Shown piece after piece: positions 1-30,621 of a stretch of DNA of 64,000 nucleotides. Under the pieces are notes generated by a model. The model did not search any database. It was given only the letters and a program-made list of their open reading frames with translations, and was not told where the DNA came from. The translations under genes were made by a program, and so were the position numbers. The DNA lies in contig NZ_KB894598.1 in the NCBI RefSeq assembly GCF_000374545.1, positions 1-64,000 on the forward strand, given 5' to 3'. Source of the stretch: Anaeromusa acidaminophila DSM 3853 (lineage in GTDB: Bacteria > Bacillota > Negativicutes > Anaeromusales > Anaeromusaceae). Each line of letters starts with the position of its first letter. Position 1 is the first letter of the stretch.

Positions 1-92
1 TAAGATCCATTGCTGAATCTCCGTTCGACTTGCATGTGTTAAGCACGCCGCCAGCGTTCGTCCTGAGCCAGGATCAAACTCTCCGATAAAAT
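1..92 (-). rRNA. rrs: 16S ribosomal RNA, 5' end (partial)
   Basis: Read on the minus strand, this is the start of a small-subunit rRNA. It has the universal AGAGTTTGATCCTGGCTCAG primer site (complement of about 64-83), followed by the conserved GACGAACGCTGGCGGC and the CATGCAAGTCGAACGG stretch leading into variable region V1. The gene runs leftwards out of the window, so only about 90 nt are present. The exact mature 5' end is approximate. Upstream (about 180-225) lies a CCTTGAAAACTGAAC-type leader, common in Firmicutes rRNA operons. Confidence 0.97.
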
Positions 93-25330: not shown

Positions 25331-25399
25331 TAAACCGGCAGGGATTTGGCCATCCCCAGAGAGAATGTACTAAAAAACATTATGCCGCGAGGTGATTTC

Positions 25400-26950
25400 A
25401 TGCACAAAAACCATCCCAGCCTCTTTGCAGCCATTCATGTCGGTTCAGAACAAGTCAGCCTGCAAATTGTAGAATACCGCAATCTAGAAACCATACGCGT
25501 TCTAGAAAACATACATCGGCAAATTTCTTTAGGCGAAGAAACCTTTCAAACTGGCCGCATCGGCACCGATACGGTGGCCGAATTGTGCGATATTCTCAAG
25601 GGTTTTCGGCGCAAACTAACGGAATATGGCGTACGCGACTATCGTCTCATGGCGACCACAGCCATTCGCGAAGCCGCCAACCAGCCCTATATTATTGACC
25701 AAATTCAAATTAAAGCGGACCTCGAGGCGGAAGTCGTCGACATGCCTCAGGAAATATTTTTTAAATATGTAGCGATTTTCCGCAAAATGCAAGTTCTCGG
25801 CTTAACAGGCGGCAAGGAAGCTTTGCTCTTTGTGGACATCACTTCCGGCGGTCTAGGCATTACCTTGTACCGCAACGGCCGCATTCTCTACCAGCAGAAT
25901 ATTCATATCGGCGTGCTACGCATCAAAGAAAGCTTCAATAAAAACCAGCGCGACTCCCTCTCCTTCCAGCAAGCCTTAGGCGAATACATTTTTAGCGTCA
26001 TCGAGCCGGTGCGGCCCGCTCTGGCGGGGCACACGATTCGTTACGTAGTCCTCTCCGGGCCGGATACAGAGCTGTTTTTACAGATGCTGGGGCGCAAAAC
26101 ACGAAGCGCGCTGGACTCGGTCAAGCAAGAAGAGTTCCTGGTTTTGTACAAGAAATTGCACAAGCTCAACCTTTCTCAAGTCATGCAAGCCTTTGCCCTC
26201 AGCGAAGCCAAAGCGGACATGGCCTTGCCGACCATTATCCTGTACCAGCAGCTGCTTTCTCTCTGCCAAGCCCAGGAGCTGGCCGTCGTCAACGATCAGT
26301 TTCTCGACGGCATGACCGTCTGCCATATCGCCCAGAAAACAAAGCACCCTTGGATGGATGAAATCGACAAGCAGACCTTCAGCCTCATCCGCTCGCTGGC
26401 TAAAAAATACCATCAGCATGACGGCCACTCCGAAGCGGTTGCCGCAGTCTCCTTGCAGCTTTTCGACAAACTTCACCGCGCCCACGGTTTAGGAAAGCGA
26501 GAACGGCAGCTCCTGGAAGGCGCCGCCCTTTTGCATGACATCGGTAAGTTTGTCAGCCTGCGCAGCCACTATTTATTCTCGCATCGTCTCATTCTCTCCT
26601 CAGATATTCTCGGCTTTTCAGAAAAAGAAAAACTGATTATGGCCTGCGTAGCGCAATACCATTCCAAAGGCACGCCTCGTCCTTCCGACCCGACCTTGAG
26701 CGGCTTGAGCGTACAGGAACAAATGACCGTAGCGAAGCTGGCCGCCATCATTCGTCTAGCTGACGCCATTGATCGTACGCACCGTCAAAAAGCGCTCAAA
26801 ATCGAATTTGCTTTTCGCGGTGAAGAGTTGCTCGTCACCGTCACCACTCGCGAAGATTATGCGCTAGAACAATGGACCTTTGCCGACAAGGCTTCCTTTT
26901 TTGAAAATGTCTTCGGCATTCGTCCCATCTTAATACGACAGGCAGGTTGA
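25400..26950 (+). CDS. Ppx/GppA-like protein with degenerate phosphatase motifs and intact HD domain
   Basis: 516 residues from the ATG at 25400 (GCGAGGTG upstream); an earlier ATG at 25346 has no site. The fold order matches Ppx: phosphatase-like half, then an HD domain with 'AALLHDIGKFVSLRSH'. In the phosphatase half, the DLGSNS loop reads 'HVGSEQVSL' and the DLGGAS loop reads 'VDITSGGLGI', so key Asp, Asn and Ser residues are replaced. The Glu region 'VVDMPQEIFFKY' also departs from GEEE/GEAE. It is probably not an ordinary exopolyphosphatase; a regulatory or polyphosphate-sensing role is possible. It is cotranscribed with ppk1, 4 bp apart. Confidence 0.85.
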   Translation: MHKNHPSLFAAIHVGSEQVSLQIVEYRNLETIRVLENIHRQISLGEETFQTGRIGTDTVAELCDILKGFRRKLTEYGVRDYRLMATTAIREAANQPYIIDQIQIKADLEAEVVDMPQEIFFKYVAIFRKMQVLGLTGGKEALLFVDITSGGLGITLYRNGRILYQQNIHIGVLRIKESFNKNQRDSLSFQQALGEYIFSVIEPVRPALAGHTIRYVVLSGPDTELFLQMLGRKTRSALDSVKQEEFLVLYKKLHKLNLSQVMQAFALSEAKADMALPTIILYQQLLSLCQAQELAVVNDQFLDGMTVCHIAQKTKHPWMDEIDKQTFSLIRSLAKKYHQHDGHSEAVAAVSLQLFDKLHRAHGLGKRERQLLEGAALLHDIGKFVSLRSHYLFSHRLILSSDILGFSEKEKLIMACVAQYHSKGTPRPSDPTLSGLSVQEQMTVAKLAAIIRLADAIDRTHRQKALKIEFAFRGEELLVTVTTREDYALEQWTFADKASFFENVFGIRPILIRQAG

Positions 26951-26954
26951 TACC

Positions 26955-29054
26955 ATGTTTGATAAACCGGAATACTTTTTTAATCGCGAACTAAGCTGGC
27001 TCAAATTCAACAACCGCGTCCTTAGCGAAGCAGGCGACACGGCAACGCCGCTTTTGGAACGGCTGCGCTTTATCGCCATCACTGCCTCCAACTTGGACGA
27101 ATTCTTTATGATTCGCGTCGCCGGCCTCAAACACCAACTTGAGTCAGGCATCAACAAAACCGACGCCGCTGGTCTTACCGTAGCTCAGCAATTAGAACGC
27201 ATTTCCGAAACGGCTCATGAGCTGGTTAAAAACCAGTACAAACAGCTACGCACGCTCATCCCGGCCTTATGCGACGCAAAGCTCTGCCTGCGCAGCATTG
27301 ACGCCTTATCCCCCCAACAGCAAGAATGGCTGGATCATACCTTTCACCGCACCATTTACCCGGTTCTCACCCCTCTGGGCGTGGACGCCAGCCATCCTTT
27401 TCCCTTCTTGGCCAATCGCAGCCTGAATCTGGCCGTACAATTAACCCGCCCTGACGAAGACGAACCGGCCATCGCCATTATTCCCGTGCCCTCCGTATTG
27501 CCCCGCTTGCTGGAAGTTCCTTTCGCTCCGCAGGAAGAACGTCATTTCTTGTTTTTAGAAGACATCATCGCCGCCTATTGCTCCCGCCTGTTTCAGGGCT
27601 ATACACTGAGCCAGCCGCTCTTTTTCCGCATCACCCGCAACGCCGACATGTTCATTGACGAGGACGAAGCCGAAGACCTGCTGGAAGAGGTGGAAAGCGC
27701 CCTCAAGCAACGTAAGCGCGGCCCGGCTGTACGCCTGGAAGTCTCCAAGCACGGCAACAAGGAACTGCAGGCCGCCTTACAAGAAGAGCTGGATATCTCC
27801 GGACAAGATATTTACGAAATCAACGGACCTTTAGATACTACGTGCTTTTTCCGTTTCGCTGATATTTCGGGCGCCGCTCATTTGCGTCACGCCCCTTATC
27901 AAGCGCCCCTGCCGGCGGCCTTGGCCGAAGCAGAGGATATCTTCGCCGCCATCCGCCAAAGCGATATTTTACTGCACCATCCCTACGAAAGCTTTGAACC
28001 GGTAGTAGACTTCATACGCCAAGCCGCCCTTGATCCCCAGGTGTTGGCCATTAAGCAGACGCTGTACCGAGTCAGCGGCAATTCTCCCATTGTCAGAGCC
28101 TTGATGGAAGCCGCAGAGAACGGCAAGCAGGTTACGGTCCTCGTGGAGCTCAAAGCCCGCTTTGACGAAGAAAATAACATTCAGTGGGCCAAACGCCTGG
28201 AAGAAGCCGGCGCGCATGTCATCTACGGCTTGATGGGCTTGAAAACCCATTCCAAAATCGCTTTAGTCGTGCGCCAGGAAGAGGACGGCATTTGCCGCTA
28301 TGTACATTTGGGAACCGGCAACTACAATGACTCCACGGCCCGCATCTACACAGATCTAGGCCTCTTCACCGCCAACGACGCCTTTGGCGCCGACGCCTCG
28401 TCGTTTTTCAACATGCTTTCCGGCTACTCCGATCCGCCGGTCTGGAATAAATTCATCGTGGCGCCGCTGAATATGCGCGAACGCTTTTATGAACTTGTGA
28501 ATGAACAGATCGCCGCCGCCCAAAGCGGACAGCCAGCACATATCAGCGCTAAAATGAACTCTCTCATTGACAAAGGAATCATCCTGAAACTCTACGAAGC
28601 CTCTGCCGCTGGCGTTTCCATTGATCTCATTATCCGAGGCATTTGCGGTCTGCGCCCAGGCATCCCCGGCGTCAGCGACAACATTACCGTCCGCAGCATT
28701 GTCGGTCGTTTTCTAGAGCATCACCGCATCTTTATTTTCGGTGTTGGCGATGAAGCTAAAGTCTATCTTTCCAGTGCCGATTGGATGCCCCGCAACCTCA
28801 ATGAGCGGGTAGAGCTGCTTTTTCCTATCGACGATATTCGACACGCCGCTCGCATCCGCGCTATGTTCAGTCTCTTTCTCAAGGATGGAAGAAAAGCCCA
28901 CGTCTTGCGTTCCGATGGCGTCTATCGCCGCGTAGACAAAAAAATTGACGCTTTTTCCAGCCAAGACGACTTCTGCCGCCAGGCTCACAAAGCCGCTCAA
29001 AAGAGTTGGACCCTAGAGCAACGCCTCCAGCCTATGCAGCGGAAAGACACCTAG
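26955..29054 (+). CDS. ppk1: Polyphosphate kinase 1
   Basis: 699 residues, full length. It reversibly makes inorganic polyphosphate from ATP. N, head, C1 and C2 domains are present. The N-terminus reads 'FFNRELSWLKFNNRVL'. The C1 phosphohistidine motif is 'LMGLKTHSKIALVVR', where the His is autophosphorylated. The C2 histidine lies in 'FLEHHRIFIFG', and 'NLNERVELLFPI' follows near the end. It starts 4 bp after the degenerate Ppx gene and ends before a repeat copy and a terminator at 29236. Confidence 0.96.
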   Translation: MFDKPEYFFNRELSWLKFNNRVLSEAGDTATPLLERLRFIAITASNLDEFFMIRVAGLKHQLESGINKTDAAGLTVAQQLERISETAHELVKNQYKQLRTLIPALCDAKLCLRSIDALSPQQQEWLDHTFHRTIYPVLTPLGVDASHPFPFLANRSLNLAVQLTRPDEDEPAIAIIPVPSVLPRLLEVPFAPQEERHFLFLEDIIAAYCSRLFQGYTLSQPLFFRITRNADMFIDEDEAEDLLEEVESALKQRKRGPAVRLEVSKHGNKELQAALQEELDISGQDIYEINGPLDTTCFFRFADISGAAHLRHAPYQAPLPAALAEAEDIFAAIRQSDILLHHPYESFEPVVDFIRQAALDPQVLAIKQTLYRVSGNSPIVRALMEAAENGKQVTVLVELKARFDEENNIQWAKRLEEAGAHVIYGLMGLKTHSKIALVVRQEEDGICRYVHLGTGNYNDSTARIYTDLGLFTANDAFGADASSFFNMLSGYSDPPVWNKFIVAPLNMRERFYELVNEQIAAAQSGQPAHISAKMNSLIDKGIILKLYEASAAGVSIDLIIRGICGLRPGIPGVSDNITVRSIVGRFLEHHRIFIFGVGDEAKVYLSSADWMPRNLNERVELLFPIDDIRHAARIRAMFSLFLKDGRKAHVLRSDGVYRRVDKKIDAFSSQDDFCRQAHKAAQKSWTLEQRLQPMQRKDT

Positions 29055-29088: not shown

Positions 29089-29192
29089 AACAGGAGTAGA
29101 TGGAGTAAATGAAGGGCTCGACTGAGGATTCAAAGGAATGTATTTTTATTTTTGTCTTCTCGTCCCCTTTTTTTACTCACTCTACTCTTGTT
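29089..29192. repeat. AACAGGAGTAG palindromic repeat, copy C
   Basis: Left arm AACAGGAGTAGATGGAGTA at 29089-29107 and inverted arm TTACTCACTCTACTCTTGTT at 29173-29192, followed by CAAAAGTTCGTGCCCC. It lies 35 bp after the ppk1 stop. Confidence 0.75.
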
Positions 29193-29235
29193 CAAAAGTT
29201 CGTGCCCCTTTCTTACATTCCATATCCCCCGTCCA

Positions 29236-29258
29236 AAAGACCGCGAAAGCGGTTTTTT
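29236..29258 (+). terminator. Intrinsic terminator of the ppx2-ppk1 transcript
   Basis: ACCGC-GAAA-GCGGT tetraloop hairpin followed by TTTTTT, on the plus strand beyond repeat copy C. Confidence 0.75.
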
Positions 29259-29327
29259 CATTTTTTCCTTGCACCTAGCGGCGAAACATTGCAAAATAAG
29301 AGAGATATCAAAAAAGGAGGGCTGCTC

Positions 29328-29981
29328 TTGAAATCGATTCTTCTGGTCCGCCACGGGCAAGCCGAGCACCATACCCGCGGACTAACCGGCGGTTGGACTG
29401 ACGTCGATCTCACACCAGTAGGCTGTCGCCAGATTGAGGCCCTTGCCAAGCGTCTGGAACCGCATTTTTCCGGACATGCTTTCGACCTCGTCGCCAGCGA
29501 CTTAAAACGCGCCGTACAGACAGCCCAGATCCTCGGGCAGCCTTTCGGCCAAACTCTCTCTCAGCATCCAGGCCTGCGCGAAATGAACAATGGCATTGCT
29601 GCAGGCAAAAGCGAAGCGGAAGCTCGCAAGCTGTCCTTGCCTAAAACAACGCCGATTCTCGATTGGCAGCACTACCCGGAAGGCGAGTCAAGACGCCAAT
29701 TTTACAACCGCGTCGCCGACGCCATGGACGAACTTACCGCTCGCCAGCGACGTCCTCTGATCATTGTGGCCCACAGAGGCACCATTATCAACATTCTCTG
29801 TTGGTGGCTAGGCTTAGGCGTCTCCGGCGCCGTTCATCACAATTTTTCCTTTGAAGTAGCCCCAGCCAGTTTAACGGTGCTGCGCTGCAACCGTTGGCAT
29901 GAAAACGCCATCGAACGCCTTAACGACACTGCGCATCTGATCAGCGCCGGTTTTGGCGACAAAATGTTATTGGACTTTTAA
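29328..29981 (+). CDS. Histidine phosphatase superfamily protein (phosphoglycerate mutase-like)
   Basis: 217 residues from a TTG start at 29328, with AAAAGGAGG 8 nt upstream. The upstream in-frame extension to 29109 runs through a repeat and terminator and is rejected. 'ILLVRHGQAEHH' near residue 4 carries the catalytic His (RHG motif). 'ASDLKRAVQTA' and 'LREMNNG' give the phosphate-pocket Arg and the Glu acid. 'IIVAHRGTI' supplies the second His, though the usual HG is HR here. Substrates in this family range from sugar phosphates to cobalamin or nucleotide precursors, so the reaction is not assigned. Monocistronic or with the following small gene. Confidence 0.88.
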   Translation: MKSILLVRHGQAEHHTRGLTGGWTDVDLTPVGCRQIEALAKRLEPHFSGHAFDLVASDLKRAVQTAQILGQPFGQTLSQHPGLREMNNGIAAGKSEAEARKLSLPKTTPILDWQHYPEGESRRQFYNRVADAMDELTARQRRPLIIVAHRGTIINILCWWLGLGVSGAVHHNFSFEVAPASLTVLRCNRWHENAIERLNDTAHLISAGFGDKMLLDF

Positions 29982-30002: not shown

Positions 30003-30284
30003 ATGTATCGTGTCGCAATCAGCTATGGAAATGATTTGGGTTATGTTGAGTTCAATGAAGTCTCGCACACCCTCTCGGTTGTCTTGCCGAATGAAGAAAA
30101 GCGCGAAGCAGCCGAAGCCTTTTTGGCACAACAGCATACCTTTAAACTTCCGCAGGAGTCACTAAGTGATTTTGTTGAAGCCACCTTACAGGCTTCGGAA
30201 AGCAAAGAAAATTTTCAACGTGTTTTAGGATATTTGTGGCAAGCTACTGGCGTTCATGTGGACTGGAGCCGCCCTGTAGACTAA
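30003..30284 (+). CDS. Small conserved-looking protein of unknown function
   Basis: 93 residues with GAAAGGTTGG upstream of ATG 30003. No membrane helix and no Cys are seen. It is acidic to neutral, with an alternating pattern 'GYVEFNEVSHTLSVVLPN' suggesting a beta hairpin and then helices ('KREAAEAFLAQQ', 'NFQRVLGYLWQA'). I do not recognise the family. It lies 21 bp after the histidine phosphatase gene and ends 9 bp before a cluster of DnaA boxes, so a link to replication control is conceivable but not shown. Confidence 0.7.
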   Translation: MYRVAISYGNDLGYVEFNEVSHTLSVVLPNEEKREAAEAFLAQQHTFKLPQESLSDFVEATLQASESKENFQRVLGYLWQATGVHVDWSRPVD

Positions 30285-30292
30285 CCCACAGC

Positions 30293-30442
30293 TTATCCAC
30301 AGTTATCCACACACTTATCCACATTTTCAACAAAACAGTGGATAAGTGCCCTCGCAAAATGTTGAAAACTCGGCTAAACCCCCTGTTTTACACACTTTTC
30401 TTGTGGATAAGCCTGTGGATTTGTGCATTTCTCTGTGGATGA
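30293..30442. promoter_or_regulatory. DnaA-box cluster
   Basis: Exact TTATCCACA boxes lie on plus at 30293, 30303 and 30315, and on minus at 30402-30410. Near matches on minus lie at 30337-30345 (one mismatch), 30434-30442 (one) and 30414-30422 (two). Three plus boxes face four minus ones. A TTTTCAACA / TGTTGAAAA inverted pair lies between them. dnaA and dnaN are not in the window. This is either an origin-like site or a DnaA-titration or reactivation site. Confidence 0.75.
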
Positions 30443-30454
30443 ACATTTTTACTG

Positions 30455-30483
30455 TTGACATCAGGCTCTCGTAGTGTTATTAT
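30455..30483 (+). promoter_or_regulatory. Promoter of tRNA-Arg
   Basis: TTGACA (30455-30460), 17 bp, TATTAT (30478-30483), about 22 bp before the mature tRNA start. Confidence 0.75.
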
Positions 30484-30505: not shown

Positions 30506-30582
30506 GACTCCGTAGCTCAGCTGGATAGAGCGTTTGACTACGAATCAAAAGGTCGCAGGTTCGAATCCTGCCGGGGTCACCA
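30506..30582 (+). tRNA. tRNA-Arg (anticodon ACG)
   Basis: 77 nt with encoded CCA. Acceptor GACTCCG pairs with CGGGGTC (one T-G wobble). The D arm is GCTC...GAGC. Anticodon stem TTTGA/TCAAA encloses CTACGAA, giving anticodon ACG, which is read as ICG after deamination. T arm GCAGG-TTCGAAT-CCTGC follows. It has its own promoter and terminator, so it is a single-gene transcript. Confidence 0.97.
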
Positions 30583-30591
30583 TTGAAAGCT

Positions 30592-30621
30592 AATCCTCCG
30601 ACTTTGTCGGAGGATTTTTTT
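30592..30621 (+). terminator. Intrinsic terminator of tRNA-Arg
   Basis: AATCCTCCGAC / GTCGGAGGATT hairpin with loop TTT, followed by a run of T. Confidence 0.85.

Follow-up and report, generated by a model that had tools for sequence, protein, structure and literature searches.

The DnaA-box cluster and its neighbours

The window (the whole 64-kb stretch of DNA that was analysed) carries a series of plus-strand genes encoding, in order, a ppx/GppA-type phosphatase, polyphosphate kinase, a histidine-phosphatase-family protein and a 93-residue orphan protein (Table 1). Directly downstream lies a cluster of DnaA boxes, followed by a tRNA-Arg gene. Beyond the tRNA, between 30809 and 37589, are genes for an HpcH/HpaI aldolase, a hydroxyisobutyrate-type dehydrogenase, a galactarate/altronate dehydratase, an MFS transporter, and a PrpR-like sigma-54 activator; together, these look like a sugar-acid utilisation cluster.

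Table 1. Features in and around the DnaA-box cluster (window coordinates).
Feature	Position	Strand	Remark
ppx/GppA-type phosphatase gene	25346..26950	+	
ppk, polyphosphate kinase	26955..29054	+	precedes the small ORF in many other families too
Histidine-phosphatase-family gene	29109..29981	+	in this genus, lies 3' of ppk and 5' of the small ORF
93-aa orphan ORF	30003..30284	+	directly 5' of the cluster; 98 of 120 class genomes have a homologue
Extra upstream DnaA box, exact TTATCCACA	30293..30301	+	10 bp 5' of box A
Core box A, exact TTATCCACA	30303..30311	+	start of the A/B/C core (B +12, C +34), present in 35 loci
Core box B, exact TTATCCACA here	30315..30323	+	usually one mismatch in relatives
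Weak boxes TTTTCAACA	30324; 30360	+; -	
Core box C, one-mismatch TTATCCACT	30337..30345	-	opposed to A and B
Weaker box TTTTACACA	30386..30394	+	missing from one of four same-genus genomes
Box D, exact TTATCCACA	30402..30410	-	
Weak box AAATCCACA, two mismatches	30414..30422	-	12 bp from box D; genus-conserved
Near box TCATCCACA, one mismatch	30434..30442	-	genus-conserved
Promoter-like TTGACA-17-TATTAT of the tRNA gene	30455..30483	+	consensus match only; just 3' of the cluster
tRNA-Arg (ACG)	30506..30582	+	
Terminator-like hairpin after tRNA-Arg	30592..30616	+	

The small ORF offers few clues to its identity. Pfam and NCBIfam gave no match and the PDB no significant one; searches of PHROGs returned only two weak matches, the better of which (E 0.006) is to an anti-repressor family. 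An AlphaFold2 model made from the single sequence is poor (mean pLDDT 66.7), and Foldseek found nothing significant with it. Members of the family share a conserved carboxyl-terminal motif resembling VDWSRP.

The initial annotation described four exact DnaA boxes within 150 bp, and these are indeed present: three on the plus strand (at 30293, 30303 and 30315) and one on the minus strand (at 30402). They are the only exact copies of the box in the entire window. Allowing up to one mismatch, the cluster holds six boxes within 150 bp, where the remainder of the window predicts 0.035 (Poisson p about 3e-12 for a stretch of 150 bp, or about 1e-9 over the window). Genome-wide, this site and the dnaA/oriC region are the only places with two exact boxes no more than 30 bp apart. 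The cluster is therefore real, with a box density far above chance. Its earlier description as three plus-strand boxes facing four minus-strand boxes is correct: three exact plus-strand boxes face one exact and two one-mismatch minus-strand boxes, and the fourth minus-strand box is weak. Boxes A and B form a double box, with a pitch of 12 bp and a gap of 3 bp.

A three-box core conserved across the Negativicutes

The order of small ORF, cluster and tRNA-Arg is common to all four genomes of the genus, in which the boxes are nearly invariant. To follow the cluster further, 98 loci containing homologues of the 93-residue ORF were oriented, and boxes were tallied according to how far they lie from the stop codon. 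In the 250 bp that follow it there are 130 exact boxes in 97 loci (1.34 per locus), and in the next 250 bp there are 21 (0.22 per locus). All other bins, upstream and beyond 500 bp, hold between 0 and 0.11 exact boxes per locus; slight rises at −250 and +750 trace at least in part to loci whose site is shifted (L062, L063, L070, and L092), and there is a further small one at −1000. Across the class Negativicutes, the cluster sits behind the small ORF and is often followed by tRNA-Arg. The locus is probably ancestral in this class.

Pairwise distances between boxes (up to one mismatch) reveal three sharp peaks: 12 bp between plus-strand boxes (39 pairs), and 34 bp (37 pairs) and 22 bp (35 pairs) between plus- and minus-strand boxes. 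These peaks define a core: box A (plus) at 0; box B (plus) at +12; and box C (minus) at +34. Under strict criteria the core is present in 35 loci, 34 of them distinct, from 16 of the families distinguished in the search. Considering exact boxes only, the 34-bp plus-minus distance is seen in 25 pairs, and every other distance from 9 to 60 bp in three or fewer. Additional minus-strand boxes in the relatives commonly lie about 99–111 bp from box A.

Identity between loci is 97–98% for boxes A and C, 82% for box B, and 43–59% for the spacer between B and C. The flanks of the core are only 28–31% identical, compared with 26.5% from composition alone. The sequence around them has diverged almost to chance, but the boxes and their spacing have been retained.

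A few loci depart from this pattern. In L071 (genome G004) the box array occurs twice in tandem, at 81–190 and 312–420 bp after the ORF stop, the copies being about 231 bp apart. In L140 (G047), 115–149 bp after the stop, the distances are 12 and 14 bp, in the order of a mirrored E. coli DARS core; this spacing may be due to chance. Finally, several lineages, notably family f11 and most of family f25, have the small ORF without the cluster behind it, so the site is not indispensable. Genomes of f11 (for example, G013, G235, and G241) contain, away from this locus, up to 13 core-model matches along with several tandem box pairs, which may reflect a redistribution of DnaA sites in this family.

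The core model just mentioned was built from sequence alone and searched against genomes. It gave full-length matches of 40–56 bits in dozens of class members from many families, and reached additional families that the ORF query had missed. One example is a family f6 locus (L207), where ppk (confirmed by Pfam) is followed by the core with further boxes and then by tRNA-Arg(ACG); the small ORF is not detectable there. In genome G019 the ORF and the cluster are separated by an inserted ferritin gene. Elsewhere the cluster and the tRNA gene part company: L054, L058, L064, L065, L069, and L073 have boxes with no tRNA within 1.5 kb, and L114, L103, L107, and L112 carry a tRNA immediately behind the ORF and lack boxes. 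The ppx-ppk pair lies 5' of the small ORF in many families.

Two simple accounts of the cluster were considered and rejected on these grounds: strict coupling to tRNA-Arg, as boxes and tRNA each occur without the other; and control of the small ORF only, as the cluster persists both without the ORF and with a gene inserted. Nor does the cluster keep a fixed place relative to any one promoter or gene, as the f6 locus, the ferritin insertion and the several loci lacking the tRNA illustrate. Rather, with order and spacing fixed in about 16 families, surroundings that have drifted, and an adjoining gene that can be lost, selection appears to act on the DnaA complex itself.

The core is also specific to the class. 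Among genomes drawn from the phylum but outside the class, the best match to the core model scored 31.8 bits. The exact A–C spacing was found in eight of about 384 genomes from outside the class; none of the matches listed has an exact box at +12.

Position relative to the origin of replication

The initial annotation offered two options for the cluster: a chromosomal origin placed away from dnaA, or a control site resembling datA or DARS. It also remarked that dnaA is absent from the window, and this is borne out. The single strong DnaA match of the genome (a 504-residue open frame, E 4.6e-77) lies on another contig, C3, in the order rnpA and rpmH (minus strand), boxes, dnaA, boxes, dnaN (the names rnpA, rpmH, and dnaN come from reading of the translations). 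Three other matches are much weaker, with open frames of 252–279 residues, and presumably represent IstB/DnaC-like ATPases. Lack of dnaA, dnaN and rpmH around the cluster is not decisive alone, since an origin need not lie beside them.

GC skew is negative in every 2-kb bin of the window, with no switch of sign at 30.3 kb. This uniformly negative skew fits a replication fork moving leftward through the window. The partial 16S gene (positions 1–89, minus strand, cut by the window edge) points away from the cluster, just as was first noted. The initial annotation called this orientation expected if replication started to the right of the cluster; the direction holds, but the start is hundreds of kilobases off.

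Related chromosomes give the distance. In G003, a single-contig genome of the same genus, 307 kb separate dnaA (at 642 kb) from the cluster (at 949 kb); in G002 the two are about 316 kb apart on one contig. Among 18 chromosomes from 10 families with dnaA and the site on one contig (in the window's own draft genome they are on different contigs), the distance ranges from 105 to 447 kb with a median of 273 kb, corresponding to 4–29% of the chromosome arm. Relative to dnaA, most of them carry the site on the left arm, but the genus of the window and two other genomes (G077 and G079) have it on the right, similarly far from dnaA. Most of these chromosomes share inherited synteny, so the 18 distances are not independent; their similarity is consistent with, but does not prove, selection on position.

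The cluster is not a chromosomal origin. Dense DnaA boxes on both strands would suit an origin separate from dnaA, and yet the complete dnaA/oriC locus elsewhere, the constant skew, and the 105–447 kb between site and dnaA in relatives leave that reading with almost no probability at all. The control site is the better of the two options.

Two genomes of the search set show another feature of dnaA: G072 (contig C1, 172–3608) and G097 (contig C4, 585920–589409) each have a pair of strong full-domain DnaA matches separated by about 3 kb. This suggests that dnaA is duplicated at the origin in both.

A candidate site for control of DnaA

Most detailed knowledge of off-origin sites that control DnaA comes from E. 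coli, B. subtilis, and Streptomyces. Off-origin DnaA clusters as such are an already known kind of element, and the Negativicutes cluster shares features with several of them.

In B. subtilis, oriC-proximal DnaA-box clusters (DBCs) were described by Okumura et al. 2012 (as cited in PMC13220808 and PMC5295017). When six off-origin clusters are deleted, initiation comes early, which points to a role in limiting free DnaA (PMC13220808, PMC5295017), although one review considers their role modest (PMC5295017). By coordinates, four of them (ywcI, ywlC, yydA, and gcp) lie roughly 0.1–0.63 Mb from the origin (PMC4447404). B. subtilis has no IHF (PMC13220808). It also lacks datA and DARS, and its DBCs are proposed to limit free DnaA. 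The likeness is plain: the DBCs are off-origin, mostly intergenic, and mostly within a few hundred kilobases of the origin, and the Negativicutes cluster likewise combines a box density above chance outside oriC with an oriC-proximal position. However, the DBCs are several and adjoin other genes, whereas the Negativicutes have one locus in one gene neighbourhood with a fixed three-box core.

E. coli datA lies beside tRNA genes (glyVXY) and lowers the level of ATP-DnaA together with IHF (PMC10950094). It too is a single intergenic box cluster next to tRNA genes, on one arm and some way from oriC. Adjacency to a tRNA is seen in the window as well, though in many relatives no tRNA is near the cluster. 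Moreover, datA is 3' of its tRNA operon, whereas the Negativicutes boxes are 5' of the tRNA and differ in order and spacing; IHF-dependent ATP hydrolysis, and the IHF site that it requires at a set spacing from the DnaA boxes, are features of datA. The A/B pair, for its part, has the gap that E. coli DnaA prefers in double boxes, which are bound best with boxes 2–3 bp apart (PMC11317965). Here the pair is embedded in a larger conserved array with an opposed box.

DARS1 and DARS2 share with the core a 12-bp double box facing an opposed box (the orientation of DARS boxes is described in PMC5742627). As measured in MG1655, the DARS1 core consists of box I (plus), box II (minus) at +14, and box III (minus) at +26; DARS2 has the same arrangement. 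The Negativicutes core has the mirror-image topology (C, then B at 22 and A at 34), and one genome, that of L140, has exactly the 12 and 14 bp of DARS. This invites the view that ADP-DnaA assembles on the opposed and double boxes and releases ADP, so that ATP-DnaA is regenerated and initiation promoted. In nearly all loci, though, the B–C distance is 22 bp rather than 14; the difference of 8 bp does not make up a whole helical turn; and the site is oriC-proximal, unlike DARS1 and DARS2. Against E. coli DARS1, DARS2, and datA the core model gave only weak, partial matches (at most 8.5 bits for DARS), none of those listed being in the datA or DARS1 locus. Regeneration of ATP-DnaA at the cluster thus seems improbable. 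As a kind of site, then, the proposal of a datA- or DARS-like element agrees with the class-wide place, box sequence, and spacing; the specific spacing of DARS (14 then 12) is not that of the cluster (12 and 22).

Other readings turn on the neighbouring tRNA gene or on the symmetry of the boxes. DnaA might repress or activate the tRNA-Arg promoter, or act as a roadblock between the ppx-ppk operon and the tRNA: the promoter-like sequence begins 12 bp after the last box, no terminator-like site was found between the small ORF and the tRNA, tRNA-Arg follows the cluster in many genomes, and DnaA represses genes adjoining several B. subtilis clusters (PMC4447404). Such control of transcription is nonetheless a rather unlikely main role, for boxes and tRNA occur apart from each other, the distance between them varies widely, and the clusters are bigger than would be required to regulate one promoter. 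Boxes A and C are also inverted repeats and could pair as a stem in single-stranded DNA or RNA, forming, for example, a primosome loading site; a few loci (L062 and L113) do have longer matching arms. Across 34 loci, however, complementary flanks show no consistent excess over shuffles, only one of 20 offsets reaching P 0.02. This absence of compensatory pairing in the flanks argues for a set of predicted duplex binding sites instead, and makes a hairpin very unlikely.

Taken together, these comparisons suggest that the cluster is probably an off-origin DnaA control locus, with predicted binding at A/B and C, which would contribute to the timing of chromosome replication; DnaA would be sequestered or inactivated there soon after initiation, as at the B. 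subtilis clusters and E. coli datA. Binding cooperatively, DnaA would occupy the double box A/B, the opposed box C, and the further minus-strand boxes, forming one nucleoprotein complex on the cluster; box C, 13 bp beyond the double box, could anchor a facing DnaA molecule. Lying a few hundred kilobases from oriC, the site would be copied soon after initiation, and the doubled high-affinity site would then take up DnaA as a sink. It may also change the nucleotide state of DnaA. Either way, less free, active DnaA would be available to the new origins, which would help prevent re-initiation. By analogy with known elements, the simplest reading would be a sink or inactivating site that is duplicated early; the sequence itself establishes the boxes and their statistics, the retention of the site across the class, the geometry and specificity of the core, its distance from oriC in relatives, and that the site is not the origin, and we infer DnaA binding, its cooperativity, and a negative effect on initiation.

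Our literature search, which covered few subscription papers, found no report of a class-wide, positionally anchored cluster with a fixed core in the Negativicutes. Whether any B. subtilis regulator balances ATP-DnaA against ADP-DnaA is unknown, according to a 2026 review (PMC13220808). The defined 43-bp core provides a means to test whether off-origin sites in the Bacillota are sinks only, or also switches of the DnaA nucleotide state. More speculatively, and with rather low probability, the double box, 13-bp gap, and opposed box may constitute a third type of DnaA-control site, ancestral, that changes the nucleotide state without IHF or Fis. If so, such a site would be the first of its type in a lineage of the Bacillota.
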